A DNA stretch of 64,000 nucleotides. Source: Phytoseiulus persimilis. Lineage: Eukaryota > Arthropoda > Arachnida > Mesostigmata > Phytoseiidae. Position 1 is the first letter of the stretch; the number at the start of each line of letters is the position of its first letter. Positions 30,369-62,389 of the stretch are shown here, piece by piece. The notes below the pieces were generated by a model. That model worked only from the letters and a program-made list of their open reading frames with translations. It had not been told where the DNA came from and made no database searches. Made by a program: the position numbers and the translations under genes. The stretch is from contig CM075102.1 of assembly GCA_037576195.1 (NCBI GenBank), positions 558,001 through 622,000 of the forward strand. The letters are read 5' to 3'.

Positions 30369-32105
30369 CTAGGCGGTCGGTCTCGCGAAGGAGCGTTCCA
30401 GGCAGCACAGGTTCCGCCCAGGGAACTTGGGCACCGCGGCGTGCCTCATGTCGCTGATGGAAAGCCTGACGTCGAGGTATCTCACGGGATTGTTCATCCT
30501 CACGGCGTCAGCTCTCCGTACCTCGTTCTCAACCAGCGCGCGGAGCTCTTCTACATTCGCCACGTGCTTGCTGTGCAAATGCAGGACATCGAGGTCCCTG
30601 AGGAGATCAGGAAGCCTCGGAGCCAGCGTCTGGATGCGGATTCTCTCTTCGCTGTTTGAAGCGAGGCAGAGCTGCTTGAGTCTGATCCCGCCCAGCGCAT
30701 CCCAGAGCTGGATTGAGTCGAGGGACAGACCCGGCGTTTCCAAGGTGAACACACGTAAGCGGCTGCAGTGGTGGAAGAAGCGTTTCAGCCCCTTCAAATC
30801 CTTCACGTAGCGCAGCTTCAGCTTCAGGGTTTCCAGCGTGCAGGGTGCTTCGAGCGAGCTGAAGAAGTCGCCGCTCATCTGGACGCTACGCATCGTGAGC
30901 TCCCGCAGTCGGGAGAAGTCGTTGAGGTACTTGGAGAAGACGCCCGAAAACTCGGCCCAGCACTTGGTGCAGCCCTCCCTCACCGACTCGACGTGGAGCG
31001 CTCTCAGGTTCAGGTTCCGCAGCGCTTTCACGGTGCCCTCGTTCATCGTCGGAAGGTAGTCGGGCTCGTGCGTGAACAGCGAGCACGCCGGCACTGCCAG
31101 AGCCTCCACTGTGGGCGACGCCCTGACCAGCGTCCACCACGAGGCAGATGAGTACAGGTAGTGGCAGCCAGTGAAATCGAGCTCCAGCAACGGTGAGAGG
31201 CCGGCCATGCTAGGCACCGCGAACGGGATCGAGGACCCGGTGACCCTGGCCCCGACCTGACCTTCGCCGAACTCCCACGGAAACTCCCCGAGATCCTCGA
31301 CGTCATCCAAATCGACCCGCTCGTAGGACGGCGGGTGCAGGGCGGGCCATTCGTCGCCTTCATCCGAGGCGGCCTCGAACTGCGGCCGCCGCTCGAACCA
31401 GTAGATGTCCTCCGAGAAGCGCTGGAGCAACTCGTAGTGGGGGAGAGATACGTCCCTGTTGAACACGTGACAGAGCAAACACGACCTCGAGCTCTGCGGA
31501 TCCCTCGAGAACACCATCTTCTCGAAGCCGTTGAGCCGCGCCGCACTGATGTCGAGCGTCCGATCCGAGATCCTGGTCTTCGCGATCCCAACCACGTTGA
31601 CGTGCAGGTTCTTGACGCTGGGACACACGTCCAGGAAGCGCGCGACCCAGTTCATGGCTTCGTGATCGGGAGGGAATTCGATGTAAACTCTCCGGATGCT
31701 AGGGTAGAAACCGAAGACGCAGTCCGCGCTGACCTCGGCGATCGTGGCGCTGAGGCTCTTCAGGTGCTTCAGGTTCTCCAGCGCATCGAGGAGGTCCTCG
31801 TCCGTTAACGAAGAGTTGAGCACGTCGAGCTCCATCAGGTTGGAACATTGCTCGATGAGCATTCTCATGGTCACCGAGCTTGTCCAGCAATCCGACAAGT
31901 TCAAGCATCGTACTCTCGCGCCGCTGATAGACAGAAACGTGATCAGAGGTTCGTGGATGCTCTTGCGATCGATGAGCTCCAGAGGATAGTACTCACCGAC
32001 GCAATGGAGCCGAGGGTGTGCGCAGGCCATGGCGGCGAGCGCTGCGACGTCGAGGTACTCTGCGATGCGGTGGAGCATTTCTTCCGGCAAATCGATCAGA
32101 CTCAT
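30369..32105 (-). CDS. F-box/leucine-rich-repeat protein
   Basis: A 578-residue intronless frame that starts at an ATG. Residues about 3-40 form an F-box, the Skp1-binding helix bundle: LPEEMLHRIAEYLDV followed by AHPRL. The rest is a degenerate leucine-rich-repeat solenoid with recurrent L..L.L units, for example VRCLNLSDCW near residue 68 and MELDVLNSSLTDEDLL near 91-106. Family knowledge suggests a substrate receptor of an SCF (Skp1-Cullin-F-box) ubiquitin ligase acting in cytoplasm or nucleus; the substrate cannot be inferred. Third positions are strongly G/C-rich compared with the surroundings, and overlapping frames on the other strand (30768-31151, 31335-31808) are shadows of this bias. 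The paralogue at 60543-62327 aligns over the whole length (LSDCW, NSSLT, YPSIR, CHYLYSS/LHFEFSP blocks). Neither signal peptide nor membrane segment is seen. Confidence 0.9.
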   Translation of the reverse strand: MSLIDLPEEMLHRIAEYLDVAALAAMACAHPRLHCVGEYYPLELIDRKSIHEPLITFLSISGARVRCLNLSDCWTSSVTMRMLIEQCSNLMELDVLNSSLTDEDLLDALENLKHLKSLSATIAEVSADCVFGFYPSIRRVYIEFPPDHEAMNWVARFLDVCPSVKNLHVNVVGIAKTRISDRTLDISAARLNGFEKMVFSRDPQSSRSCLLCHVFNRDVSLPHYELLQRFSEDIYWFERRPQFEAASDEGDEWPALHPPSYERVDLDDVEDLGEFPWEFGEGQVGARVTGSSIPFAVPSMAGLSPLLELDFTGCHYLYSSASWWTLVRASPTVEALAVPACSLFTHEPDYLPTMNEGTVKALRNLNLRALHVESVREGCTKCWAEFSGVFSKYLNDFSRLRELTMRSVQMSGDFFSSLEAPCTLETLKLKLRYVKDLKGLKRFFHHCSRLRVFTLETPGLSLDSIQLWDALGGIRLKQLCLASNSEERIRIQTLAPRLPDLLRDLDVLHLHSKHVANVEELRALVENEVRRADAVRMNNPVRYLDVRLSISDMRHAAVPKFPGRNLCCLERSFARPTA

Positions 32106-35100
32106 TGCGATCTTCTTGAAGCTGATGTCGCGTCAGGATTCACGCGATCCGGCTAGAGATCACGAAGCCACCGGGATACACGGCCGAAGTCAGAGCTAAA
32201 ACTGCAGCTCTGATTCTAACACTGGCACTGGAGAGGGATCCTCAACAGGGTTGTTCTTCGAGCCGCGAATATCGGCATCGTAGCCTACCCGTTCGATCCC
32301 ACCGAACGCCCCACGTGGGGTGTTCGTGAAACAATCGTCTGTGAGGACTTCTTCATTGCAGACAACCGGCTTCAGCACAGGGCGCGTTGCTCCTGGAGGG
32401 AGAAAGAAGCTACACCGACTTTTTTGGCCTTCCGTGTCTTGCGTCCTACGCTTCGTCCTCTTCCTTAGGAATGTTCTCCACGAATGCGTTCATGCTTTCT
32501 CCAGGTTACCCGGACAATGGATTTGAAGAAGAGCGAGATCATTGACCAGGGTAATCATCTCGACTCAAACGTCCGATGCGCCAACCCTCAGAGAGGACCG
32601 ACCGAACTCACGGAACTAGAAGAAATCGCCAACGCTCGATGCGAGAGATCGATTCCGACCGTGAGAGACTCCCTCCCTGATTGTGTTCAGGCCCGACAGT
32701 CATTAGTGGGGTCATTGGCTAATGATGCAGCGACGGAATGCTTGAGCTCAAGAAGCTCTTCAGACAGAGGCTTCCATTAGTTTCAAATATGCTGTCAGTC
32801 GCGATGTCTGCAGATTAACTCTGCGATCCTCATGCATTCAATTGACGATTCTTCAGCAGCGGTTCGGTCAATGCGAACGGATTTACAGGATGATAGCTGA
32901 GCCAGGATGATGGGATCCCTCCTTTCGACTATAACTCAGCCGCTGGAGGATATTTTCCGGATCTGTTCTCCTTTTTCGCTCGATAGGTCTCCAAAGCACG
33001 CATCTGTGCCCCGTGCCAAAGTCGTCTTGGCACTTTCGTTCGACCGCCAACATCAACGGGCTCGTTAATGTTCAATTCTCAACGTATCTGCGTTTATCAG
33101 AATGGGTTCCACTCGTCTTTGATCCATCTCCAGTATGCGCCAGATAGCGCGCGAAACCTGCGCCGATTCGAGTAAAATCCAGTAAATCGCCCGTGGCTCT
33201 TTGGGAAGGCCGATCTTGAAGATTCTTTCCGCAGACGTGAGGCTCCTCTTCGAGCAAAGTATCCGGCAAATCGTGGTTTTTATTCAACGTATCGACGGTG
33301 TACCGATCGAACGTTCTCGACTAGCGGACGGCTTGATGAACCTATGAACATCGGATCGTTGATGGGGTGCGTCGCTATGATGATCGGTCAGCTGTAATTT
33401 TGTGTCGAGTTCTCCGAGTTCGCGCTCGACCCGCGCTCTAATGGGTGTATTCAGAGAGGGATCAGAGACGAATCGAACCCAATCTGAACATCGCCGATCC
33501 GTTGAGAATAGACGATTAACGAGCCTGTTGATGTTGGTGGTCGAAAAAGAGGAAAACAGACTTCGACAGGCTCTCAAATCACCTATTCTCAACAGGATTT
33601 CGAAAACATAACCGGGAAAGATGCATCTCTCGGAGAGCCACCGAACGAAAGAAGGACGAGAAGAAAGATGACCATCGGCTGAGTTATGGCCACAAGAAGG
33701 ACGACAATGATCGCTGCTGAGCTTACAGCTATCACCGTGTATAGGATGGGCTGGCTGGAAACGCAGACCGCGGTTCTCCTCTCCTGTTCTGGAACATGAG
33801 TTCGCGCGGGCGTCCTGGCGAATACGGTGTTATCGACAGCGGCTACAGGAGTATTTCCCGAAACGGGATCCGCCGGAACCTGGAGTCACTCGACGCTGTA
33901 TCCAGTCCAGGTGGCGCACTCCTTTATTCTGGTGAGGATTGGCTGAATTTTTGGAATCGACCTCCGCTGAAGCCGCGCAACGATTCCGCTAGCAGTGTTT
34001 GTGAGGTACGTCCTTTCAATCAAAGCATGCACAGAACGAGGAGCCTGGGAGGACGACAGAAGACAGAACCCTTCCAGTATTGCTCGACCATCGCACGAAT
34101 ATCGTCCATGAGACCCCGTCTCCATGAACACATCGTTCAAACCTTCAGCTGAGGCCTGACATTTCGAAATAATGGATATATCTATCACTTCGATGTTCGT
34201 TGAGCGATCACTGAGAACTGAATCTCTGTAGTTGGTGCCCGACGCCGGAGTTCACGCTCCGTAGTATCAATGAAATCAAGAGTGGGAGAGGAGAAAATAC
34301 ACGTGGCAGTGAATTCCGCTCCTGCCGTGATTCGTCTGAGCAACACTGATATTCGGGCTCGAATCCATGAAGCACCGCTATGAAAACAATGCAAGGAGTT
34401 CGCAGCGCCTGACGGACCGCTGTCAGACTCCGCGCGCCGAAGCGGCGGTAAGTCCGTGACTAGCGGTACAGCCCTGGTCTACACTCCATGTCAAATGACT
34501 CACCATAAAGCGAAAGGGGGAGTGGGCATTCGAACCGATGAAAACAAACGTCTCGCACAACACTCGACGATCAACATCAGCGATCGAGTAGGCTCACCAA
34601 TCCGTGCTTCCCTCCATCTCACTTCGCGAAGAACTTTCCCTCAATACGAGCCCGAACAAGAAACCCATACTTCGAATACGGGCACGGCTAGCGAAATCCT
34701 TTTGTCAGCTCGGTGCGTCGATCATCAAGTGATTCCGGACCTCCGGCACCTTCCCTCCAAGGCCAGTATCCTTTTCCTCCGGATGAGATTCATTACCAAC
34801 CTTGGCTCGCCGCTCAGACTGGGAACTCTGTTGACCCAATCGCATGGAAGCTGCACGGGGACTGAGAGATCAGGAGCCGTTTCCAAGAGTTGATATCGGG
34901 AAGTTTTCTCCAGCTTAGGCTTTTCAGGTCCCATCTGCGCTCTACGGTGTTGCACTAAGGAACCCGCTCGATAGTGTTTTCATTCGGAACCCACTCATTC
35001 CCCGCTCTAAAAGTCGCTTCCATCGAAGCATTTCCTCCAGTTTCTTTCCGAAAAATCATCCAATCATGGGAATGATTGGGGATGTTCTTCCCGGCTCCGC

Positions 35101-35108
35101 CCCAGTTC
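32106..35108. other. Upstream region of the F-box gene and anonymous sequence
   Basis: The first 200 bases should hold the promoter of the minus-strand F-box gene, but no clear TATA box was found. The remainder has only short frames without domains. Confidence 0.4.
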
Positions 35109-35960
35109 TACTCACCGAAATTAGGATCGAGCCACTCTATTTTTCGAATGATAAAGTGAATGAACGGAGGCGGAACTCTCAGAGGTGATGGCCATGGATG
35201 TCTGCCGGGAGAACAAACATGATCCACAGACAAGCGCGACTTGTCCAGCAGATGTAAACAGAAAAAAGCAAAATGATTGGTTTTGGAGTGCGGAATCAGA
35301 ATAGAGCCACCCATGGAAATGATTTATTTCACATGAAGGGACGCGGAAAAAGCTCCTTGAGGTGGATGTTACGCTTTCTAATATGTCGTCGAACCTCCCG
35401 GTGCCTGAATGACGGCGAAAAAGTCTCCGAGGCATACTCTCGATGAGGTTGCGCAAAAAAAAGAAAAGAAGACGCCCAAGCTGCCCTGATGGCGTCTTTG
35501 AGCTCCGGAACGCTTCTGAATTGGCGACCATCCTTGTAAACACGTCGCGCAATCACGCCCCAGAGGTTCTTGATGGGGCTCGAATCCGGACTGACCGCCG
35601 GCCACGGCAGTACATTGATTTCTTTCCGGCGAAACCACTTACCATATGAATCGATGCGTTGTCTCGCTGTAACACATGGTTCTCGTCATCTATCTCCTCG
35701 TACAGCCGAACAAGTTCGTCTTCCAGGATGTCCACGTAGTTCGTCGCCGTCATCTTGGTGGAAATCCAGGCTATCCGCGATTTGGCACGACTTCCAGAGG
35801 CCGCCCAGATCATTACGCTGCCTCCGCCGAAGTTGCGGCTCATTCTTACGTCCTTCTCTTGCCGCAGATCATGCCAAAAATATTGGAGGCCGTCCGGACC
35901 ATCCAAATTGAAATTTTTCTCGTCACTGAACAGCACATTTTGCCATTCGGACCTCCAGCC

Positions 35961-37080
35961 TAGGCATGAATTTCCGAGACCCGGAACTCGGAAAATAATT
36001 TCCGACTCGGGAAATCATCCAAAAAATAGTTTCCGACTTGGGCATGAGAAACGGGGCATCTAGGGGAGGATATGATGATTTTTTTTTCCAACGAGGTGTC
36101 TAGGCCCATCGGCTCGTTGGCCGTGTGGCATAAACCAACGCCTTGGGTGCCACGCTAAGCTAGCAATCGCGGGTTCGATCCCCGGCCGGGACAACAAATT
36201 TCTTATGTGGTAAAAAGAGGATTTAATTTATATCAGAATTAAATCTGAACCATCTTAAGACCCAAGCCCACCGCCCGCAATGGGATTTGCGAGGCGATAG
36301 GGAGTGTTACTGAAGCAATACCGAAAAGGTGAATCCGGGACACTCCTGAGGGCTGGCTGAGAGGTTCAGCCGAAAACAGAGGTGTCTAGGCCAGTTGCTG
36401 GCCGGGGAATCTATTCACGGAAACTACTTCTCTGATGATTTCGGTGGGTTGGAAATGTCCGTTGATGATGGATCTCCGTTCCCGAGTCAAATATTAATTT
36501 CTGAGTTGGGAATTTTTTTTTGATGTTGTAGCGAAAATTTATTTGATGATAATGGTTGTATGCACTGCGGGAGTCTAGCCGATACCGACTAGATTAGAAG
36601 CCTCAGGTAAAGAGCCGCTGACCGCCGCACTGTTGCCTTTCTGGACCTCAATGGACACACGCTGAAACAGGAACTCCGAGGCCCTTCTGTCTCCCGTAAC
36701 AACTTCAATTCGCCTTCCGTGTTGTTCACAAGAAGACCTTTGGCAGCACGTTTAGACTGACCATGATGATGCTTGCCTCGGAATCGACGCTGTCGACTAC
36801 GGGTTGAGCTAGCACACGTGCGCTTACTGGTGCTTTTCGCTCTGACATCGGCAGTGTCACGATGGCTTCCGCTGCGACCCGTCGAACCGGCGACCTGTTC
36901 GCACTCACACAAAATACTGGAGGGTATGTCGGTTACGAATCATGGAAGAACAGCGGGGACAGGCTTCCAAGAACTCGGAAGCCCTCGTGAGCGCGAAGAT
37001 GCCAAAACGGGAAGGGTTGGGAAATCATTTCCGAGTCGGAAATTATTTTCCGAGTTTCGAGTCTCGGAAAATCATGCCTA
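35961..37080. mobile_element. 1.1-kb TIR element (Mutator-like) inside Tc1
   Basis: The element starts TAGGCATGA and ends TCATGCCTA, with inverted repeats of about 60-65 bp per end that contain internal CTCGGAAAT/ATTTCCGAG motifs. The flanks CCTCCAGCC (35952-35960) and AGTCCAGCC (37081-37089) match at 7 of 9 positions and are read as a decayed 9-bp target duplication. The interior has no recognisable transposase; the minus frame at 36589-36912 has no domain. It does contain a tRNA-like stretch at about 36110-36192, possibly a SINE head. Confidence 0.75.
36110..36192 (+). repeat. tRNA-like sequence, probable SINE head
   Basis: An A-box-like TGGCCGTGTGG (36118-36128) and a B-box-like GGGTTCGATCC (36171-36181) are spaced as in tRNA genes and tRNA-derived SINEs. 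The acceptor strands do not pair, so it is unlikely to be a working tRNA gene. A short inverted repeat CAACGAG/CTCGTTG precedes it, and the motif GAGGTGTCTAGGCC occurs at about 36093 and again at about 36379, possibly marking a SINE-like unit of about 290 bp. Confidence 0.45.
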
Positions 37081-37761
37081 AGTCCAGCCCATGAACTGGC
37101 GAGCGAAGTCCAACCTGGCTGTTTTGTGGTGAGGCTTAAACGAGGGTTTCGCGCGGCGCTTGTTGTACGCGAGATGCTCATCACTCGAGAGAATTTGTTG
37201 CACGCGTCGAACCGTCAAAGGGAGCCTGAGATCATCGCGTAGAGTTGACGCGACTCCCTTGCCGCTCCTTGCGTGACGCAGAACGAGCCGCTTTTGTGCC
37301 TCGGAGAGCTTCTTGTTCGTTCCGCCCACCCATTGCGCGGAGTAGGACGATCCCAGGTCGACGAAATGGTCCACAGCGCTTCTGGAACGTCCGACGAGCC
37401 TTGCAAAAAGTCCATTAGAGAGCCCCTGTCTCTTGAGGACAGAGATTTGAGCTCTTTCCTCACTTGAAAGACTTTTTCATCTACCCATCGTAGCGCGAGC
37501 GCGATGATTCCTTCCGCGACTTCGTTACCGTTCTTGAATGGATTCATTTCGGCAGCAGAACACCAACCGTGGTGATTCGACCGTCAGAAGTCGGATCGAG
37601 AAGTTTGCTGTGCTCTCGCGCAGTGAAAACGACGATGTTCCATGGGTTGCTCTATCCCAATTTCGCACTCAAAAACGGATAATTCTGCTTTTTTTTTTCT
37701 TTACATCTGCTGGTCAATTCGCACTTGTCTGTGGATCAAGTTTGTTCTTCTGGTAGTCATC

Positions 37762-38291
37762 CATGATCATCACCTCTCACAGTTCCGCCTCTCGGCAGCC
37801 CTTCGACAAAATACGCCTCCATTTACTTACTTTTTCATTCGAAAAATAGGGTGGCTCTATCCTGATTTCGGTCACTGTGTGGTATTTCACTCTCAGAGTA
37901 TCTCACTCTCGTCGATCACGAATCCTGTAGCACTCATCCACAGCCCTGAGACATTGTCTCAGAACTCGCCTCTTCCAAGGTGATGAACTTGTCTCTTCTG
38001 ATCAGCGTTCATTCCTCGTTGTCATGCAGCTGACCTCTCACAGTTCCGCCTCTCGGCAGCCCTTCAACGAAATATGCCTCCATTTACTTACTTTTTTATT
38101 CGAAAAATAGGGTGGCTCTATCCTGATTTCGGTCACTGTATGGTATTTCACTCTCAGAGTATCTCACTCTCGTCGATCACGACTCCAGTAGCACTTATCC
38201 ACAGCCCTGAGACATTGTCTCAGAACGCGCCTCTTCCAAGGTGATGAACTTGTCTCTTCTGACCAGCGTTCATTCCTCGTTGACATGCAGC
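37762..38291 (+). repeat. 261-bp tandem repeat, units 1 and 2
   Basis: Two adjacent units (about 37762-38022 and 38023-38283), with the marker 8-mer CATGCAGC at 38023 and 38284, repeat with a period of 261 bp. Unit 1 is partly the right end of the Tc1 element (up to 37877) and partly its flank. Unit 2 therefore contains a second Tc1 terminal repeat ending CGGTCACTG followed by TA. A third unit lies at 43387-43646, displaced by the 5.1-kb hAT element. Short frames running through the units are shadows. Confidence 0.9.
38284..38291. repeat. Target-site duplication of the large hAT (left)
   Basis: CATGCAGC, repeated exactly at 43387-43394. Joining the two sides restores the normal junction between tandem units. 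Confidence 0.9.
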
Positions 38292-38309
38292 CAAAGGCGT
38301 ACCCAGGGA

Positions 38310-38336
38310 GGGGGGGGGGGGGGGGGGGGGGGGGGG
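38310..38336 (+). repeat. G homopolymer, 27 bases
   Basis: An uninterrupted run of 27 G directly behind the left hAT terminus; length may be affected by assembly error. A 17-base G run at 53752-53768 followed by TTACCGGG resembles the TACCGGGG that follows here. Confidence 0.9.
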
Positions 38337-39188
38337 TACCGGGGCAAGGGGGTCATGCGCCCCCCCCCAAAACTCCCCGATTATACTGGAAAGGTGGATT
38401 ATATTCTACTTTTATGGATGAAAGTATAGCGCACGGATCCAGTCTCACCAGAAACATCTCCACGAGTTCGAAAAGCTCCCCGTATCTCTCGTTACCATCG
38501 TTTGAAGGGCCTTGAGTTTTGGGATGAGCCGCGGCGTACGTGACTTCTGGAGGCTTTGCAACGGTTATTTAACCGCGGTTAATGACCGCCATAATCGCAA
38601 ATAATTTGCGGTAACCGAAAATTTCCGGCGTATTCGACGTTTTTCTCCTCCAAAAATGCGGACTCAAATCAAGGATGTGTCTTATCTGATACGCATATGA
38701 TTTTTGGGGAAACGTATTATCTGATGAGCAGACGGGGGAGGACTGAGGTATCGAATTTGGCGCTTAGAATTGAACAGAAATGAACTGACAGACGTTGAAG
38801 TTGCTCTCAGCATTCAGCTCGGTACAGCGAATGTGCAGAGACAATGTTCCGGGTAAATGTGATCTAATGATATTTAAGCTGAGTCGTCGGAAACTATGAG
38901 ACGATCGACTCCGCTCGGCATATTTGATTCGCTCGCCGAACTAGTGAGATGGTGTCACTGACATCTCGTGTGATGGCTCCCGTTGAACGAAGTTCGAACA
39001 CGCTTCCGAAATGAGGACTCGACCAGCAATCATACCTGGAGATCTCATGCAACACCTGCAGGCTCTTGATGCTTCAATTAACAAGCCGTCCAAGGACTTT
39101 ATGAGAGAGCACCGCACGCGGTGGACTCAATCTTCAAGACGGGTGCTCTTCGCATCCGGTAAGATCAAGAAACCAAGCACAGTGGAAG

Positions 39189-39190
39189 TA
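39189..39190. repeat. TA target duplication of Tigger element (left)
   Basis: TA before CACTAGG; the second copy is at 41331-41332. The uninterrupted sequence GAAGTAGCTA is present in the intact hAT copy near 24660. Confidence 0.9.
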
Positions 39191-41330
39191 CACTAGGACC
39201 CCGTTTAACGCGGTGGATACGTTCCCGAGCGCAGAGCGCTAAACGGAACCGCGTTGAACGGGGTCGCTCTAACACGGCCGGGATAGTGATAGGGGTTAGA
39301 AGGCGTGTAAGTGGTCTCTATAGAGCTTCTACCAGCTTTGAAATCAGATGAAGATATCGATCGATCTATATAGAGGTATGGGGTTGGTTCAGAACGAGCA
39401 TTTATTAAATTTGAGGTTGGATGAGATTACCGGGTGATGTGGGTGTACATTATACGTCACATCGTTACCCGTGGGGTAAATCTCGGTTCTCTGTGAGGAA
39501 ACGATCCAAAGTTGATTGCTTCTTCTGTCTTTGACGCTCCTCGAGGAGGATACGATAGCAGGAGATGGCATCCAAGACACCCTGTTTGGCCTTCAGACTC
39601 CTATCACCATCTGGATCGTCTTCAACGAGTTAATTCAAGCCCTCTATGATCTTCATCAAACTATGCTCCAGAATTCCGGTCTCCTTTTCCTCTTCCTCGG
39701 GAATGGTCGGCCTCTCGGTCTGATTCGAAAGTTCTACGATCTCGACAAGATATCTCTTCCCGCCAAGATACCCTCGCTGGCCGTCGTAAGAAGCTCCTCG
39801 ATGTCTTCTGCGTTCACGTTATCAAGCCCCGTTTTCATTCCCAGCTGGACGAGCTCGTCTACATCAACCGATGCTTCTCCGGTTCGACTTTCCTCGTTGA
39901 GATCGGGCCAAATCTTCTTCCAGACGCCCGTAATACAGATCTGCGAAACTTCTTTCCACGCGTCGTCGACGGCTCTCACCGCGTCCATGATAGAGTAGGA
40001 TTCCCAGAACTCTCGGATCGACTGTTTGTCTTTGCCGTCGGTTTCCTTGATGAGTCTACGGAAAGTTGACCTCAGATAGTAGGCCTTGAAGTTCGATATC
40101 ACTCCTTGGTCCATTGGCTGCATCAAAGACGTCGTGTTCGGTGGAAGAAAAATTATTTTCACGGGAATGCAGGTTTTGAGATCCGACAAGTGAGCCGGAT
40201 GACTCGGAACGTTATCAATAAGGAGGAGGGCTCTGGGTTCCAAATCTTTCGATTCGCAGTAGCGTTTCACGGTCGGGCAAAACTGATTCAAGAACCAATC
40301 TTGGAAGATGGTTCCCGTCATCCATGACTTCTCATTAGTGGTCCAGATCACGGGCACACTGGATTTGGGGATTCCTTTCATAGCTCTCGGGTTCTCGGAA
40401 TGATAAATGAGCAAAGGTTTCAACTCCAAGTCCCCCGTAACATTGCCTCCGAGGAGCAGTGTAAATCGGTCCTTGGCAGCTTTGTGACCAGGAGCGCGTT
40501 TCTGCTCGCGTGAGAGGAATGTCCGCCTAGGCATCCGTTTCCAATAAAGGCCAGTCTCGTCCACATTGAAATTGAGCTCTGGAGGATAATTTCTCACTTG
40601 CACTAGGGACTTCAGTGTGGCTGGAAAGGCTGAGGCTGCTTCGACGCATGATTTTTTCTCTGTTGCTGAGAATCATTCTGATTGTGGACGTTGGAATCTT
40701 CTCTGAATCACTGACGTCAACTTGACGCATACCAGCGTCTAATTTCCTGAGGATCGCACCTTTGGTGTCCAGGGTAATGGCTTTCCTTGTCATTCTCGGT
40801 CATTGTGCACCGCTCCCTTTCATCGTGAGATGATTTTAGTGCCCAATCTTCGGAGGTTCCCGGGCTCGATGTTTAAACGGAAGACCCCCGCCTTGAAACT
40901 CCACCGCGCTACCGCCAGCAGCGGAATTCTTTTCGGATTCGAGACTGGAGTGCCGCTTTTTCGGGAGATAAAAGAATGGTAGGAATCTGTCAGGGACTAG
41001 GGAAATATCTACGGTGGACAACATCATCTGATTTCCCGCCATACCTCGAGCTCGTGGAGATAAGGAGTTATTGCCGGCGCTGCCCTCCGCCGTTTCAGCG
41101 ATGCAGCAGCGCCTTTCCACAGAAGCGGCAACCTTCCTCCCTGCACCGCTTCGAGAACGGAGAGACTTAGTCTTCTTTGTATTCCATTCATGAACAATCT
41201 ACTCCATATGCTTGGAAGCAAAGCGCTCATCTCGTTTTAACGCTCCGCGTGGTCAGAGGTCGACCAGAAAAAAGAACAGAGTTATAGCGAAACCGCGTTA
41301 AACGGGACCGCGTTAACCGGGGTTCTAGTG
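39191..41330 (-). mobile_element. Tigger-like (pogo) DNA transposon
   Basis: This 2140-bp element has terminal repeats CACTAGGACCCCG and, on the right, the complement of CACTAGAACCCCG, flanked by TA. The ends carry repeated GTTTAACGCGG motifs, likely transposase-binding sites. The minus strand encodes a CENP-B/Tigger-type transposase (39465-40793) with frame damage and an internal loss. The insertion point can be proved by the intact sister hAT sequence at 24239-25439, which has the empty site. Confidence 0.93.
39465..40793 (-). pseudogene. Tigger/pogo transposase, decayed
   Basis: The start ATG is at 40793, and MTRKAITLDTKGAILRKLDAG opens a CENP-B-like psq helix-turn-helix. The second DNA-binding domain is largely missing, with a frame change near 40600. 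A 289-residue stretch (40603-39734) then holds the DDE nuclease: FNVDETGLYWK (first Asp), LLIDNVPSHP (second Asp) and QPMDQGVISNF (third acidic residue). All three catalytic positions are kept. After another frame change near 39735, the C-terminus continues with an acidic stretch and ends KKQSTLDRFL, a tail typical of Tigger transposases. The internal loss and at least two frame changes make it non-functional. Confidence 0.9.
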
Positions 41331-41332
41331 TA
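41331..41332. repeat. TA target duplication of Tigger element (right)
   Basis: TA directly after TTCTAGTG, the right end of the element. Confidence 0.9.
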
Positions 41333-42127
41333 GCTACAATGTGCGTCGCACCCGCATGTTGAGGCATCTATTGAAGAATCGTGATAGGATCCCTCGAGAA
41401 AACGGAGATCTCTAATCCACTGGCACAGCAACGATGATCTCAGAGCCGAAAGCAGCGACTTGGGGTCAGCGAAAAGATGAAGCAGCTCGAGGGGAGGACA
41501 TCAAGGATTGCAATGATAGGTTGAGACTGGTTCCCAATGAGGAACGAGAGAATCAGGACGTCGAGAAATCTGTAGTTCTAGATCATGAAATTGTGTCAAA
41601 TAGATATGGGGTGGGGCTTCGAGAAACTGAGTTGTCGGTTCTATTCCCCTGAAATCAGCTGGTTCCGGACGTCATTGCCGTGGAAATCATTGCAAAATAT
41701 CCTAGCCATGCCCAAGATCACTTTATGAAGCCCCAGTTATTTGCAGAGCCAAGTGACCACTGAGGTCTCGGGAAAACATCATTCCGAAATAGATGAGAAA
41801 TCTCGCAAAATGTCCATCGAACCTCCCAACTCGCAGTTCGTCGGCGCCGAGCGATGGGTGTTATGAATGGATGCCTGGACAGTGAGATTTCGGAGGAAAC
41901 GATTCACTCGAACCGGTCACGCACAATCCATCAGGGCTCAGCGAAATCACCACATACATTTATTGCGCACGTATGGTTGGTGAAATGAGTTGAAGCACTA
42001 TCATTGACGTGCACCGCGAGGCTGCTCGAGGAGGACTATCCCAAAATCTCGACCCTGCTCCAAATTTTCGCAACACTGCCGGTGACAACTTCGACTCTCG
42101 AACGTACTTTCAGTGTGCTGGAGATGC

Positions 42128-42136
42128 TGAAAACAC
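42128..42136. repeat. 9-bp target duplication (left)
   Basis: TGAAAACAC, repeated at 42962-42970. Both derive from the Leu-Lys-Thr codons of the hAT transposase. Confidence 0.88.
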
Positions 42137-42961
42137 CGGTCTAGGACATTTTGGCTTTTGACATTTTGGCTTCGGACGTTCTGGCACGGACACTTTGGCC
42201 CCGAAGACAGTTTGGCTTCAGACATTTTGGCCTCGGAGACATCTTGGCTTAAGACATTTTGGCCTCGGAGACATCTTGGCTCAGGACATTTTGGTCTCGG
42301 AGTGTTTGGCTTCGGACGTTTCGACTCGATTTCGATGGCGAGTTATATTCGATACCTTGAGGGTTTGACCAATGCTTGCGTAGCTTATCCGTTGTTCTGA
42401 TGACCTTTACCGATCTTGACGTAGGCCCTCGCGAATCGAGCCTGTTTTCAGATTCCATACCGCTAGCTTTGTAACCCGAATATAGGAGTACGGGATGATT
42501 TCCGCGCCACGGAGAGCGGAAATCATCTGACATTAATATCTGCTAGTATCTTGTTGAGCATGATTCTATCGAAACTACAAGGCCTCTTTCCGATCAATTC
42601 AGGATAGAATCATGGTTGGCAACATGGGAAGATCCTCGCAGGAATCGATATCAAGTGATTCCCGCTCTCCGTGGTGCGGAATTCATTCCTGCTCTAAGAT
42701 AGCGGACGAGATGCACCATAGATCCGGGTGTACCATACGACTTCGCTCTCCGAAGATGAGGATGTCATAAGCCAGGATGTCTCCGAGGCCAAAATGTCCA
42801 AAGCCAAGATGTCTCCGAGGCCAAAATGTCCAAAGCCAAGATGTCTCCGAGGCCAAAATGTCTCCGAGGCCAAAATGTCTAAAGCCAAAGAGTCCGTGCC
42901 AAAACGTCTGAAGCCAAAATGTCCAAAGCCAAAATGTCTAAAGCCAAAATGACCGGCGCCG
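42137..42961. mobile_element. Foldback element with tandem-repeat arms, inside hAT
   Basis: This 825-bp element has a left arm (42137 to about 42320) made of tandem units such as GACATTTTGGCCTCGGA and CATCTTGGCTTAGGA. The right arm (about 42760-42961) is made of the complementary units AAGCCAAAATGTC and CCGAGGCCAAAATGTC. Both tips contain CCGGTC/GACCGG. The centre (about 42320-42760) has no recognisable gene; it carries a shorter inverted block around CGGAAATCATCT and GGAATTCATTC-like sequences. The 9-bp duplication and restoration of a conserved hAT protein motif on removal fix both boundaries. Long frames within the arms (42158-42400, 42728-42952) are periodic shadows. Confidence 0.9.
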
Positions 42962-42970
42962 TGAAAACAC
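42962..42970. repeat. 9-bp target duplication (right)
   Basis: Exact second copy of TGAAAACAC; the hAT reading resumes here. Confidence 0.88.
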
Positions 42971-43386
42971 ACCTGCAAACCTCGATGAAAGATTAGAGAC
43001 TCAACGGTCTCACAGTGATGAAGATTCACCGGGAAATTCCTATCGCCGTTGAGGAGGTCGTTGAACTACTCGCTGCTAGCGCACGAAAGCTCGATCTTAT
43101 CCTATAAACTCTTTTACATGCGGACTTCCCAATACGCGTTGTGTACGTGAAAAATTAAATGGTTCCCTCTCAATTGTGGAGAGATATCACGGAATCGCAG
43201 TCGTGCCTCTTTCCCTACCGTTCCAATAGTTTCAATTGCAATGAGCGTAGCACAAGGCACATACGCACGAGAAAGCACACAAAGTAATACGCTGGTCCTC
43301 AGCATCTACGGCATGATGATGATCATCATCGTCATCATCATCACATCCCTTGGCCCCCCTCAAAAAAGAAGCTGGGTACGCCCCTG

Positions 43387-43646
43387 CATGCAGCTGCAAC
43401 TCACAGTTCCGCCTCTCGGCATCCCATCGACAAAATACGCCTTCATTCACTTACTTTTTCATTCGAGAAATAGGGTGGCTCTATCCCAATTTCGGTCACT
43501 GTATGGTATTTCACTCTCGGAGTATCTCACTCTCGTCGATCACGACTCCAGTAGCACTTATCCACAGCCCTGAGACATTGTCTCAGAACGCGCCTCTTCC
43601 AAGGTGATGAACTTGTCTCTTCAGAGCAGCGCTCATTCCTCGTTGT
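43387..43646 (+). repeat. 261-bp tandem repeat, unit 3
   Basis: Starts with the hAT duplication CATGCAGC and runs for 260 bp to the next CATGCAGC at 43647. It contains the Tc1 end CGGTCACTG followed by TA (about 43500) and the same flank as units 1 and 2. Confidence 0.9.
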
Positions 43647-43654
43647 CATGCAGC

Positions 43655-44421
43655 TCATGTCACATCTTCGATCAAGTGTTTCCTGTCAACTTTGGATCCT
43701 CCTGATGCGCAGAGCTGCGGGGTTCAGGCATTATCCATTAATCATCATCATTGTTGAGCTGACGCAGCAAAAACTGCTCAGGATCCGTCTTCGTTATCCA
43801 GATAGTATATATATAGGTGTGGAAATGAATATCCTTCACTTCGTCCCACCACTAAACCACGTGTGCTTCGTCTCTCACCCTGTCTAGCCAGTTACCATCT
43901 AGGATTGGATAACTCATCAATCCATCGATCTATGAGTTCATGCCCTGATGGATTGATGAATCATGGATTATTGCCATGGAAACGGATGAGCTCCGCCATC
44001 AGAGACTCATCTATCCATCTACTCATATGGATGGATTGGAGGTCTTAAATAGTGATAGCCTGTACTTCCAAGCTCGACTCATCAGCACGAAGGCATCCGC
44101 CTCTGGCTCGCCCGGCCCGAGGGGGAACCAACTACGCGCCACCGTTTCTATTCATTGGAACTGTTGGGTGCTGAACTTTGACAGCTCATAACTCCGCTCC
44201 CAGAAGTCGCAGAAAGGCTTTGAAACACTCAAAATACGCGGAATTTTCGATTTCTAATAATGATCGAAGTTTAGCACTCGGCACTTCTGCACGCACCCAA
44301 AATTAGAGTTCGAATGGTCAGACATTGAAAAAAAGGTGAATATGCATCCAAAAAGGAGGAAACCCCCAAATCAAACTAGAACTTCGCGTGAACGGTCCAT
44401 CGCGGATTCAGAGCCAGGGCG
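43655..44421. other. Anonymous spacer
   Basis: No gene recognised. A short stretch at 43905-44040 contains repeated ATGGATTGATG/CATCAATCCAT words in both orientations, possibly a small hairpin-forming repeat. Confidence 0.4.
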
Positions 44422-44426
44422 AATAT
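44422..44426. repeat. Target-site duplication of LTR element (left)
   Basis: AATAT, repeated at 49017-49021. Confidence 0.85.
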
Positions 44427-44567
44427 TGTTGTGTTCGACGATCAACTACAACGAAGCGTTCCCCGCGACGCTATAAAAGGAGCGGTCTACTTCGAATAAA
44501 TGCTTGCTTGCCCATTCACTCTTCAAGTCTGAACGTCGATGTCCTGATCCTATTTTGATACACCTCA
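44427..44567 (+). repeat. 5' LTR
   Basis: 141 bp, TGTTGTG to CACCTCA. A TATA-like CTATAAAAGG lies at 44471-44480 and an AATAAA at about 44495-44500, consistent with the promoter and polyadenylation signals of a very short LTR. Confidence 0.93.
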
Positions 44568-44611
44568 TTGGCGCAGTCGAGAACTTGAACAGTCTGCAAA
44601 CCTGTCGAACC

Positions 44612-46015
44612 ATGGCAGGTGGAAGACTAGACGGGGATCAGGATCAGGAAGTCAACCTTAAGGAAGTTCTGAGGACGATGGCCGATGCTATCAGGATGTT
44701 GACAGAAAGTCATCAACGAGGGGACACGGCGGCGTCAGCTCTGCAAAGTACGACGACCCTGCTAGGTACTTTCTTCCACAAGCCGGATCAAGACCTCATT
44801 TTCGAAACGTGGTATTCACGACACAAGGCCATTCTGGAGGAAGCGACCCCATCAAGTAAACTCCGAACCCAACTGCTGCTGAAGGCGTTGGGGCCGATGG
44901 AATATGCTAGACTCCTTAGTCGTCTCTCGCCAGAGCTGCCGGAAGCTAAACGGTATGATGACCTCGTTGAAATCCTTAAGACGACCTTCGGATCCTCGAA
45001 ATCAATATTTCGGAGACGGCATGACATCTTGAGTCAACATGCTCCGTTGACAGCTCTGGATAATCCAGAGGAAATCGTCGATTGGGCTAACCTCAAAGGC
45101 GATCACTTCGAGTGGGGCAGCATGTCCGTGGAAAAGTTCAAAATTTTCCTAGCAATCAACTACGCAGCCGGTCCGACCTTCAAAAACATCCGCAATGTAA
45201 TGCTGAAGGCAGCTGATGACAAGGCTGACCTAACGGTGAAAGAGTTACGGGAGGTTGTCACGCGGTACGTTACCCGAGCAAGAGATTCTACGATCGACAC
45301 ATCTGACCCCGGCGGGGTGAGTCCCACTATCAGCTATGTTCAACAGAGACCAGTGCGCAATCTTCCGAATTCACGACAAGACTCGAAACCACGAGATCAA
45401 CCGAAGCGACAAGCTCCGAAAGCAGGTGATTCCTCAATCTGTGCCAGTTGTGGAGGCCCACATGATCGACGAACCTGTAAGCATCTCACGTCGACCTGTA
45501 TCTTCTGTCACAAAAAGGGCCATATTAAACCAGCTTGTCGAGCCTTCCAGCGCAAGGAACAGAAACTTAGTTTCGGGACAGTGACTGTCGTCGCCTCCAG
45601 TGTGGAAGAATCTCCGCCGGATCGCGGGCGCCCGTTCGCATCAATTTTCCTCAATCGAATGCCGGTCAAATTCCGAGTCGACACCGGCGCAGATGTAACT
45701 GTGATAGGGAAGACGTTATGGACGCGCCTCGGGTCGCCAGGTTTACGGTCCATGAAATTCCGTTGTATGGCAGCCAACGGTCAAGGTTTGGATGCCCTTG
45801 GCTACTTCGAAGCTGATTTCTCACTGTCTCGTGATGCGAGCGCCAGTTTCCGCGATCGTGTCATCGTCCTGCACAACCAACAGACGGCTCTTCTTGGTTG
45901 TCGCCCAACATTCGAGCTAGGTCTTCTCGTACCAGGCTCCTCCATCCAGATATCATCTGCCGAAGAAGTCAGAACTCCGGAAATGTGGGCATCGCGTTTT
46001 CCTGACGTATTCTAA
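44612..46015 (+). other. gag and protease part of the gypsy element
   Basis: The likely start is the ATG at 44612, downstream of the primer-binding site (MAGGRLDGDQ). The first part is a gag capsid-like region with matches to the second gypsy fossil at 57830. Two zinc-binding stretches follow, CASCGGPHDRRTC and CIFCHKKGHIKPAC (a CCHC knuckle). Near the end is the aspartic protease signature FRVDTGADVTVIG. This part would form the particle and process the polyprotein. Confidence 0.9.
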
Positions 46016-46021
46016 GAAGGC

Positions 46022-48856
46022 TTGGGACGCTGTACCAAGATGCAAGTCACTCTCGAGCTCAAGGAGGGTTCCAAACCTATCCACCTTCGAGCAAGACCCG
46101 TTGCGGCGCCTTTCCGCGAAGCGGTGGACAAAGAGCTAGACCGGCTGGTTGAGAATGGAACTCTTTCGGCTGTGGAATCATCCCCGTGGGCCTGCCCCAT
46201 CGTCGTTGCACGCAAAGCGAACGGAAAGATCAGAGTGTGCGCCGACTACTCCACAGGTCTCAACGACGCTCTTCAGGATGTTTCACATCCAATTCCAAAC
46301 ATGGAGGAGATCATGTCTAACTTCTCAGGTCATAAGTTGTTCACTCAACTCGACCTTTCAGACGCGTATCTCCAACTCGAACTTGATCCATCTAGTCGGC
46401 CGCTGACAACCATAAACACTCATCGAGGTTTGTTTCAGTATAATCGCCTGGTTTTCGGGCTTAAGACAGCCCCGGCCATTTTTCAGCGCGCCATGGATCA
46501 AGCTCTCGCAGGTCTGGATGGCACGTTGGTTTACCTTGATGACATACTGGTGATGGGAGCGACCGTTGTGGAGCACGATCGTCGTTTGGGCCAGGTTCTG
46601 TCAAGGCTCCAAGACTGGGGTTTCCGGTTGGGATTGCCCAAGTGTCTTTTCAACTCCCGTGAAGTCAAGTATTTGGGTGTGATCGTCAACGACCAAGGCA
46701 TTCGAGCAGATCCGCAGAAAATCGCTGCAATCAAAGACCTCAAACGTCCCACTAACGTGTCGGAAGTTCGATCCCTTTTAGGCTTGATCAACTACTATGG
46801 AAAGTTCGTCACCCAGCTGCATCGCTACAAAGCGCATTTCGAGGCTCTCCTCTCGAAATCATCGCGCTTCGAATGGACCTCCGTGCTCGACGGAGCGTTC
46901 GATGACATCAAGGAAGTTCTCTCGGGCCCGCTCGCACTGGCACATTATGACCCTCGTCAACAACTGATTATCGCTGCGGACGCCTGTAATACCGGAATCG
47001 GCGGTGTCCTGCTCCAACGTTATGCTGACGGCACGGAGAAAGCCGTTTTCCACGTGTCCAAATCTCTGTCTCCTGCGCAACGCAATTACGGACAAATAGA
47101 AAAAGAAGCCTTTGCGCTGGTGTACACCGTGGAACGTCTGAAGAAGTTTGTTTGGGGCCGCCACTTCACCCTTCAAACGGACCATCGTCCGTTGCTCGCC
47201 CTCTTCCGCACTTCGCAGACCAAGGGTTTGGACGAACGGACGGCGCCCAGGTTACGCCGCTGGGCTCTGCGCCTCGTCGGGTATGATTTCGATATTGAGT
47301 ACGTTCGGACATCGGAGTTTGGTCAAGCTGACGCGCTGTCGAGATTGATTCAGGAAACACGTAGAGACGCAGCAAACTCTGGTATGGACGAAGTAATCGC
47401 CTCTTTGGAAGTCGACGAGATCGACATCAAGCATCTCGTCAACTCAAAGGTGTTCACACCAACGGGAGTTGAAGTTCAGAAGGCAACGTCCACAGACCCG
47501 GTCTTGAGGGTTGTGTTGGAACGTCTCCGTCACGGCTGGGAGAGAGCCGACTTCAAAAGCCACACACTTCGCGTGTTCGCTCAACAGGCAGATTCCCTGT
47601 GTAGTTCGCAAGGGATTCTCATCCTACATGATCGGTTGGTAGTGCCATCTTCTCTCCGGCCCACCGTCTTGAGGAAGCTTCATCGAGCCCATCCAGGTAT
47701 TGTCCGGATGAAGGCACTGGCGCGCGCCCATTTCTATTGGCCGGGCATGTCCACGGACGTCGAGACCCTCGTCAAATCGTGTGCGCATTGCGCTCAGCAT
47801 GTCGCGAGTCCGACGAAAGTTCCCCTCGCCCCGTGGCCAGATCCGAGGAAGCCGTGGGTCCGTCTTCACATGGATTACGCGGAACCCCAAGAAGGTCATT
47901 CGTTCCTCGTCATTGTGGACGCTTTTTCCAAGTACGTAGATGCCACGTACATGTATCCGGCATCGTGCGGTACACTCGTCGACTATTTGAGAATGGTTTT
48001 TCGCCTGCTTGGTCCCCCGGAGACCCTCGTCACCGACAACGGGGGTCAGTTCACCTCCGCTTCGTTTGCGGAACTCTGTCAGGAGTTCTCAATCATCCAC
48101 CTGCGATCTTCCCCGTACTCTCCAATGAGTAATGGCTTGGCCGAGAAAATGGTGTGTACGCTGAAAAATGCCATCGAGAGTACAGGTCCGTTGAGCTTAG
48201 ACGAGGCCGTATCGGTTTACAATTACACGCCAACTGCATCTCTCAACGGGAAAACTCCTTTTGAGACTCTCTTCGGTCGCCCGCGTCGTTCGTTTTTCCC
48301 CATTTTCAGGTCCCAGGCTTCCACGATTTCGGACAGCAGCAGGAAGTTCAAGCTTGATTTCGACAGGCACCATGGGACGCGTCCACGTCTCTTTCGAAGA
48401 GGGGAGAAAGTTGTCGTCGCGTTGGACAAACGGCGTCGAGTACCCGCGACTTTTGTGGAACCGGTTGGGGCGGTTTTGGCTCGTCTTGAGGTAGATGGCA
48501 GACAAGTCGTCCGGCATCTCAATCAAATCTGGAAACGGGCTGCTTCATGGACCGACGAAAACGACTTCCCCCTCGAGCTCTTGCCTTCTTCGCCGGTGAC
48601 CGTAACCGGCGCCGAGCTGGCCGAAGAGTCAGAGTGCAATGCGGGTCCGTGTCCGAGTCCCTCGCTCCGGGAAAACGAAGAAGGCGGCCTTTCAGCTCCG
48701 TCGGTCGAGGATGACAGCGAGGAGAGTATCCGTCCTATTCCCCCAAAAGAGCTCGTGCAAGCTCAAGGTCCGGCACGATTGCAGCCCGCGCGCGTCGCGA
48801 AGAACGTCGAGGATTACGGAGTCCTCGCGGGCGTCAGGCGCATGTTCGGACGCTAG
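46022..48856 (+). other. pol part of the gypsy element (RT, RNase H, integrase)
   Basis: In order: reverse transcriptase with FTQLDLSDAYLQ and the catalytic YLDDILVMG; RNase H with IIAADACNTGIGG and the LQTDHRPL block; integrase with an HHCC zinc domain (LHRAHPGIVRM then CAHC), a catalytic core with HMDYAEP and VTDNGGQFTS, and the glutamate motif near SPYSPMSNGLAEK. The carboxy end is a tail of about 180 residues rich in acidic and proline residues. All hallmark residues of an active family member are present by eye. Confidence 0.93.
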
Positions 48857-48864
48857 CCCGCTGA

Positions 48865-48875
48865 AGAGGGAGGAA
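48865..48875 (+). promoter_or_regulatory. Polypurine tract
   Basis: A purine-rich run directly before the 3' LTR, the expected primer for plus-strand DNA synthesis. Confidence 0.75.
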
Positions 48876-49016
48876 TGTTGTGTTCGACGATCAACTACAA
48901 CGAAGCGTTCCCCGCGACGCTTTAAAAGGAGCGGTCTACTTCGAATAAATGCTTGCTTGCCCATTCACTCTTCAAGTCTGAACGTCGTTGCCCTGATCCT
49001 ATTTTGATACACCTCA
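48876..49016 (+). repeat. 3' LTR
   Basis: 141 bp, same length and ends as the left LTR, with three substitutions. Confidence 0.93.
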
Positions 49017-49021
49017 AATAT
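49017..49021. repeat. Target-site duplication of LTR element (right)
   Basis: Exact copy of AATAT. Confidence 0.85.
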
Positions 49022-49999
49022 CACTATCTGATGCAATGTACCACAAGGGCCTTTTCAAGATTGTTGGATGTCAAACGGTACCAGCGGTCGTTCATCATCA
49101 AGAAGCTCAGTTCCACGTCTGTGGACGTCAGAGGCTCAAACCTGAACCTGGATCATTCAGTCGGAGTTAGCAGCCCGCCATGGCATGCATGAGAGGGGTG
49201 CCGGGTAGAACTCTGCTATTGCTTCTAGACGATCGTGATCAGGACTGCGATTCGGAATGAAGAATGCGGAGCCGGGACTCCACCATTATCTCGCGAAGGA
49301 CCGTTTCGGAAGCTTTCGCGGAACCGGTCAGAAAAAAATTCTCCTCCTCCAGGTGCCGGATTCAATCGGGGAGACATCCGAAGATGGCGTCCCTCAACGC
49401 CGAATCGCGTTGAAGGAATATATCCTCCAGTGAGCGTTGAGTCACTCAAAGTCCTGGAGCGTCCTCTCAGTCGAGAGAATGAACGACCGACGAGAAGATG
49501 CGGAGACGTTTCGCGCAATTTACAGCCGCTTCCACTCAAGTTCCCCGTCCGGTTGAACTAGTCTGAGGCAGCAGTGGTGTCCGACGCCATTCCACGGAAC
49601 AAGGTGACACGCGAAGCTGATTCTCGGAAGATCTTCATTTCGCACGAGACGAGGGTGTCCCAGAGCAGAAACATGAATCGGATCACTTCTGCCATCCGAA
49701 GGAAAAATCCTGCACGATGGTAACCATAACTTTCAGAACTGACCCATCCTCTATCATGTAGGCTGTGTCGACGGAAACGAGTCACAACGCTTCATCGTAC
49801 TCAACTCAATCGGGCCAGAGGAGCGTCAGGGCGTTCTCGAAGAACTGCGGTATGGTTTAGCCGTTCGTTTCCTCCAAACTTTCTGCATTGAGGGGGGAGC
49901 TCTGGCTCCCCATTATTCCTCGAGCTCCCACCACGGCGTGTGCCACGGAGCGTCCCTCGACGTTCGTCGTTCCATCCACGGAGATCCAGATATACACAT
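49022..49999. other. Anonymous spacer
   Basis: Short frames only (up to 108 codons), no domains recognised. Confidence 0.4.
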
Positions 50000-62327: not shown

Positions 62328-62389
62328 TGCAGTAGAAGCGTAACTACGGAGCCACGAACGATGCACGAGCGAGCACACTACGCACTAAT

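Follow-up and report, generated by a model that had tools for sequence, protein, structure and literature searches.

A nest of six transposon insertions occupies positions 35111-43646 of the 64,000-nucleotide stretch of Phytoseiulus persimilis DNA analysed here (the window; C2:558001-622000), and it very probably arose by successive independent insertions, one inverted segmental duplication and then further hits, in an order that can be deduced. The insertions are a Tc1 element, a terminal inverted repeat (TIR) element, a short interspersed element (SINE), a hAT element, a Tigger element and a foldback element. The Tc1 element would have inserted first, and its right end, together with flanking DNA, would then have been triplicated. 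A hAT element, internally deleted beforehand, would have landed in the triplication, followed by Tigger in the hAT element, after which a 21-kb block would have been duplicated in inverted orientation. Finally, and solely in the window copy, a foldback element related to Mutator-like elements (MULEs) would have entered the hAT element, and the SINE the TIR element. Entry of the TIR element into Tc1 would fall between the Tc1 insertion and the block duplication. Each insertion was presumably made by the transposase of its own family, and that of the SINE by a long interspersed element partner. Copies and relatives of the nest elements elsewhere in the genome (181 Mb in 127 contigs) were fetched and are given L numbers.

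The features of the nest are as follows.

33154-54280, unstranded: block with an inverted duplicate; partner at C2:750832-726221, on the same contig, ~114 kb away
35111-37877 (35109-37879 with flanking dinucleotides), minus strand: Tc1/mariner-type element with long terminal inverted arms and a broken transposase; relatives L018 and L030
35961-37080, unstranded: hAT-like non-autonomous TIR element, ends TAGGCATGA, within Tc1; shorter relatives L063, L067 and L068
36107-36378, plus strand: putative SINE within the TIR element; duplication GAGGTGTCTAGGCC at 36093-36106 and 36379-36392
36520-37026, unstranded: additional 507-bp insertion inside the TIR element, also in the duplicate
37772-38032, plus strand: 261-bp unit 1, Tc1 right end and ~155 bp of flank
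38033-38293, plus strand: 261-bp unit 2, its end interrupted by hAT
43396-43654, plus strand: 261-bp unit 3, on the far side of hAT
38292-43386, plus strand: hAT element; target duplication CATGCAGC at 38284-38291 and 43387-43394; Dimer_Tnp_hAT; relatives L003, L008, L071 and L072
39191-41330, minus strand: Tigger element (pogo group) within hAT; TA at 39189-39190 and 41331-41332; relatives L076 and L077
42137-42961, unstranded: putative foldback-type, MULE-related non-autonomous element within hAT; 9-bp duplication TGAAAACAC at 42128-42136 and 42962-42970

The limits of the nest had been set by an initial annotation, and they held on re-checking. Its count of six insertions also stands, with a different membership: a supposed 'shorter hAT' drops out and the SINE, which had been overlooked together with the insert at 36520-37026, comes in.

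The inverted duplicate allows the later insertions to be ordered. The two copies of the block differ by 194 mismatches in 13,445 aligned bases, with many gaps, and by ~2% outside two near-identical tracts. The duplicate shares Tc1, the triplication, the TIR element with its 507-bp insert, hAT and Tigger, and lacks the foldback element and the SINE, the sites of which are single, clean targets. Because these sites are empty, the foldback element and the SINE would have arrived after the duplication, and because the duplicate holds Tigger and not the foldback element, the latter would be the younger of the two. The initial annotation had instead placed the foldback element and a separate shorter hAT in the outer hAT first, with Tigger as the last step. 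Nesting by itself permits the foldback element to have come before or after Tigger, but the presence of Tigger beside a clean, empty foldback site in the duplicate, and the continuity of hAT as one element in L003, L008, L071 and L072, make that order very improbable. The sequence of Tc1, triplication, hAT and Tigger was retained; the step of hAT into hAT was not, and the foldback element had been placed too early.

A difference of ~2% with private insertions would also suit two haplotypes, and the nest or its duplicate might then have been created in assembly, for instance through misplacement of a second haplotype. However, both copies lie on C2, inverted and ~114 kb apart, in sequence free of N (none in the window or in the 40 kb fetched around the duplicate), and matches along the diagonal end at 33154 and 54280, the 9.2 and 6.2 kb fetched from the flanks of the duplicate containing no continuation of them. 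In addition, the tracts at 33154-36106 and 37080-38140, on either side of the inner TIR element, together contain 8 mismatches (~0.2%), whereas the stretch between them has 13 in ~690 bases (1.9%; p=8e-7, calculated on rounded lengths with limits chosen after looking). Since the near-identical tracts flank a more divergent stretch, they suggest gene conversion between paralogues, of which such a pattern is expected. An assembly artefact is accordingly highly unlikely.

The earliest steps were sought in the Tc1 element and the adjoining tandem units. The Tc1 element matched HTH_38, HTH_Tnp_Tc3_1, HTH_Tnp_Tc3_2 and two pieces of DDE_3 (E 5e-6 to 1.4e-3; HTH_38 and both DDE_3 pieces at 5e-6 to 6e-5), all below the Pfam gathering score because the transposase frame is broken. 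A DDE_3-type transposase with a Tc3-like helix-turn-helix points to a member of Tc1/mariner. The element is flanked by TA on the left (35109-35110) and by TG on the right in unit 1 (37878-37879), with TA in units 2 and 3. Three copies of the Tc1 right end plus ~155 bp of flank were found at a period of 261 bp, as the initial annotation had proposed, and since the units contain the Tc1 right end, the Tc1 insertion preceded the triplication. Among 36 matches, the flank part of the unit was found solely in the nest and its duplicate, the remainder being the Tc1 end alone, so an empty Tc1 site was not available for comparison of the TA. In a tree of the tandem units, which diverge by 4.2-7.3%, every window unit grouped with its counterpart in the duplicate, and the triplication is therefore older than the duplication. 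The duplicate's unit 3 is partly out of register in this tree; when realigned, it differed from the window's unit 3 at 7 of 243 positions, compared with 19 of 259 between units 3 and 1.

Tc1 relatives at C4:25.877, 25.893 and 25.909 Mb (L030, L019 and L022) have their terminal repeat four times in tandem with a 174-bp period. These three loci are spaced at 16 kb and may be copies of one event. Together, the three 261-bp units with flank and the four 174-bp units at the C4 loci raise the idea that tandem multiplication of Tc1-family ends has happened repeatedly, through aberrant action of the family's own transposase or through end repair, which we consider unlikely. If it were so, tandem arrays of Tc1 ends would increase the number of transposase-binding sites or serve as seeds for satellites. 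The Tetris foldback element and satellite of Drosophila virilis (PMC4079207) are reported to involve tandem repeats derived from parts of a transposon. The 261-bp repeats are likewise built from part of a transposon; unlike Tetris, they comprise three units only, each a Tc1 end with unrelated flank.

The hAT element was predicted to have landed in this repeat, and CATGCAGC was found at both of its ends. As this target duplication is accompanied by an interrupted unit 2, the insertion followed the triplication. The 8-bp duplication and a dimerisation domain (Dimer_Tnp_hAT, PF05699; E=1.1e-4, over the cut-off) are those of a hAT element, and they place it in that superfamily. Its relatives aligned with it as follows: L003, which has similar ends and its own 8-bp duplication (GGCGACAG), spans 38348-39190, 41330-42136 and 42962-43386, and L008 spans the same three stretches from 38363, but without 38456-38612. 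L071 (~4.5 kb; 8-bp duplication GCGATCGA) and L072 share this left part; in both it is followed by ~2.2 kb of additional sequence, which contains the greater part of the transposase, before the right part resumes at 42028. DUF4371 and Dimer_Tnp_hAT are matched by pieces of L071. Because of this extra ~2.2 kb, the window hAT is a deletion derivative that has lost ~2.2 kb internally at ~42028, a deletion common to L003 and L008. L073-L075 join at other points and therefore have other internal deletions. The window lacks 101 bp at 38468-38474 that is kept in the duplicate and in L003, L005, L006 and L007, and the duplicate's hAT has kept the left copy of CATGCAGC and lost 21 bp at its right end. 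Opposite window 38335-38376 the duplicate has an extra ~180 bp in hAT, and opposite 41143-41304 an extra ~360 bp in Tigger.

The 'shorter hAT' was rejected as a separate insertion, as it is the left half of one internally deleted hAT through which L003, L008, L071 and L072 run. It sits at the same place in hAT relatives, and the signs of a separate hAT copy were absent: with Tigger and the foldback element removed, a scan of the hAT element found no 8-bp duplication (one mismatch at most) bordering inverted ends, which had to match at 8 bases in 12 or 9 in 14. A second hAT sought through the end TTGCAAAGCC was also rejected (54 matches, with 55 expected by chance). Alternatively, the segment at ~38551-41572 could be a fossil insertion: another element would have entered the ancestral hAT of this family and been propagated with it since. 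L069 matches only 38551-39190 and 41330-41572, and L070 only 38701-39190 and 41330-41572 (78-82% identity), and in L071 this part lies upstream of the transposase frame, all of which would fit such an origin; the failure to find a duplication with inverted ends would not, nor would the retention of at least part of the segment in all seven hAT copies examined. A fossil insertion is thus possible, albeit the less likely explanation. Since all seven copies hold some of the segment, it would in neither case be a step in the assembly of the nest.

Tigger and the foldback element were both confirmed as later arrivals within hAT. The Tigger target is intact in six of six hAT copies (L003-L008), and these empty sites show that Tigger followed hAT. 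The element matches DDE_1 (E=1.2e-41) and, just under the cut-off (21.1 bits against 21.2), CENP-B_N (E=2.4e-4); with its TA duplication, these domains identify a pogo/Tigger element. The initial annotation had called so varied a record unusual for 8.5 kb. Two other long Tigger copies, L076 and L077, each contain at least one private extra stretch (~1.4 and 0.3 kb), which hints that the interruption of elements is common in this genome. The 9-bp foldback target is single in seven of seven hAT copies and in the duplicate. A perfect 9-bp duplication flanks nine of the 19 other foldback copies fetched; four have eight of nine bases, among which only L051 has well-matching ends, and six have none.

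The relationship of the foldback element was examined through its coding relatives. L087 matches it over 625 bp at 90%, and at its ends; between these foldback-like ends, L087 has a stop-to-stop frame of 496 aa that encodes FLYWCH and MULE domains. A 9-bp duplication with matching ends was sought around L087 and not found. At C3:357.6-361.0 kb, foldback matches flank another MULE match, which likewise has a 496-aa frame. The 9-bp duplication and the link to a MULE-transposase element place the window copy, on present comparisons, in the MULE/Foldback group. As both frames lie between foldback-like sequences, the best interpretation of the window element is a non-autonomous MULE with the architecture of Tm1, a Mutator/Foldback element of root-knot nematodes for which mostly 9-bp duplications and a 496-aa putative transposase are reported (PMC3169594). 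The two share 9-bp duplications, unlike 7-bp end motifs, GGA beside the motif and then short tandem units. At one end the motif is CGGTTAA in Tm1 and CGGTCTA here; at the other, GGT replaces the GGA of Tm1; and the repeated unit here, of the CATTTTGGC type, differs from that of Tm1. The 496-aa frame of L087 and the Tm1 transposase are likened by length, not by sequence. Across the genome, the MULE domain gave 220 candidates, of which 150 were scored; 147 of these exceeded the cut-off, one of them only together with its neighbours, and many lie in open frames.

The TIR element was reported to lie within Tc1, and its empty site was read base by base in L018. Seven of eight aligned Tc1 loci (L019 and L030 being counted as one) join 35960 directly to 37073 or 37082 and so lack it; L017 does not reach the site. 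Its 8-bp duplication, CTCCAGCC at 35953-35960 and GTCCAGCC at 37082-37089, has one mismatch (7/8) and an extra A at 37081; by eye, the duplication is 8/8 in L067 and 7/8 in L063 and L068. A duplication of this length is that expected of hAT, and the element is probably hAT-like. Target duplications of 8 bp are also made by other superfamilies. L063, L067 and L068 are ~360-465 bp long, and the window copy additionally has the SINE and the 507-bp insert, the latter a patchwork in which 36536-36726 and 36716-36876 match two different dispersed repeats.

The SINE is absent from the duplicate, which has a single target site, and from the independent TIR copy L063. It shows no difference over 266 bases from eight of nine fetched copies and two from the ninth; these nine are the top of 40 scored from 1178 candidates, and the identity describes the best-matching copies rather than the family as a whole. 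Near-identical copies are spread across the genome. Duplications were seen by eye in nine of ten copies, including the window's (that of L079 displaced by 9 bases, that of L084 with one mismatch, none in L082). Variable duplications, fixed ends and the lack of inverted repeats all point to retroposition. By eye, GGTTCGATCCC is B-box-like; searches with Rfam and ARAGORN for a tRNA-derived RNA polymerase III head gave no match.

It was also possible to compare divergence with nesting, as the initial annotation had suggested. Tc1 differed from its nearest fetched copy, L018, at 106 of 1546 positions (6.9%; confidence interval (CI) 5.6-8.2%), hAT from L008 at 72 of 1858 (3.9%; 4.2% from L003) and Tigger from L076 at 39 of 1439 (2.7%); with the SINE at 0%, these values descend in the order deduced (Fisher test: Tc1 and hAT, p=1.4e-4; hAT and Tigger, p=0.025). 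The Tc1 copy L024 was dropped, misalignment having given Kimura two-parameter distances of 0.20-0.25, and Tigger was compared over 39192-40645, as the duplicate's extra DNA inflates the full-length figure. Between window and duplicate, hAT differed at 40 of 2051 positions (2.0%) and Tigger at 26 of 1454 (1.8%). The TIR and foldback elements could not be ranked by nesting, as their intervals are wide and their figures measure family age. The terminal branch of the foldback element was 0.009 in a tree of 13 of the 19 copies, the six without a plus-strand match of 200 bp being left out; values for L053 and L054 are identical to those for L047 and L048, which they overlap. Divergence ranks thus broadly agree with the order, of which they are by themselves no proof.

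Several observations weigh against the order proposed. Nearest-copy divergence bounds the history of a family, not the date of an insertion. Against L077, Tigger differs at 40 of 979 positions (4.1%), which is not below hAT; the TIR element, at 26 of 304 (8.6%; CI 5.7-12.3%), is nominally above its host Tc1 (6.9%); and the foldback element, at 30 of 745 from its nearest aligned copy (4.0%), is above the older Tigger. The 40 hAT differences between window and duplicate comprise 26 in the duplicate, 13 in the window and one ambiguous, a split that implies an uneven clock, and the Tc1 differences cannot date the duplication because 33154-36106 and 37080-38140 are only ~0.2% apart. Precise excision, or a short conversion with another hAT as donor, could also have removed the foldback element from the duplicate; a long conversion tract over this site is countered by substitutions at positions 41911 and 42989 that are private to the duplicate.

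The nest is therefore real yet ordinary, and neither a new kind of system nor a new mechanism is needed to account for it. 'At least five superfamilies', as had been claimed, holds only if pogo/Tigger is treated as separate from Tc1/mariner; with the two combined, the nest has three DNA superfamilies and a SINE. The resolution of nested transposon clusters by age, with order taken from containment, is an established approach, as in REANNOTATE (PMC2672092). Containment was used in the same way here, but the inverted duplicate additionally supplies paralogous empty sites that order insertions not containing one another. The locus is ordinary for the wider field; it provides a clean teaching case, in which a built-in comparison orders insertions that nesting leaves open, and it exposes a SINE family young enough for identical copies and a family of Tm1-like MULE foldbacks that includes a coding member. 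Topic-based, rather than organism-based, literature searches of titles and abstract openings returned no account of this locus.

Elsewhere in the duplicated block, an LTR-retrotransposon-like (long terminal repeat) insertion at window 44164-49183, with open reading frames (ORFs) of 512 and 946 aa that are gag- and pol-like by eye, is lacking from the duplicate. The F-box-like protein encoded at window 30369-32132, for which a protein search that scored 7998 candidates gave 0 homologues at E<=0.001, is the product of one of two long minus-strand ORFs; the other is at 60543-62384, and by eye the two apparently encode related F-box/leucine-rich proteins.

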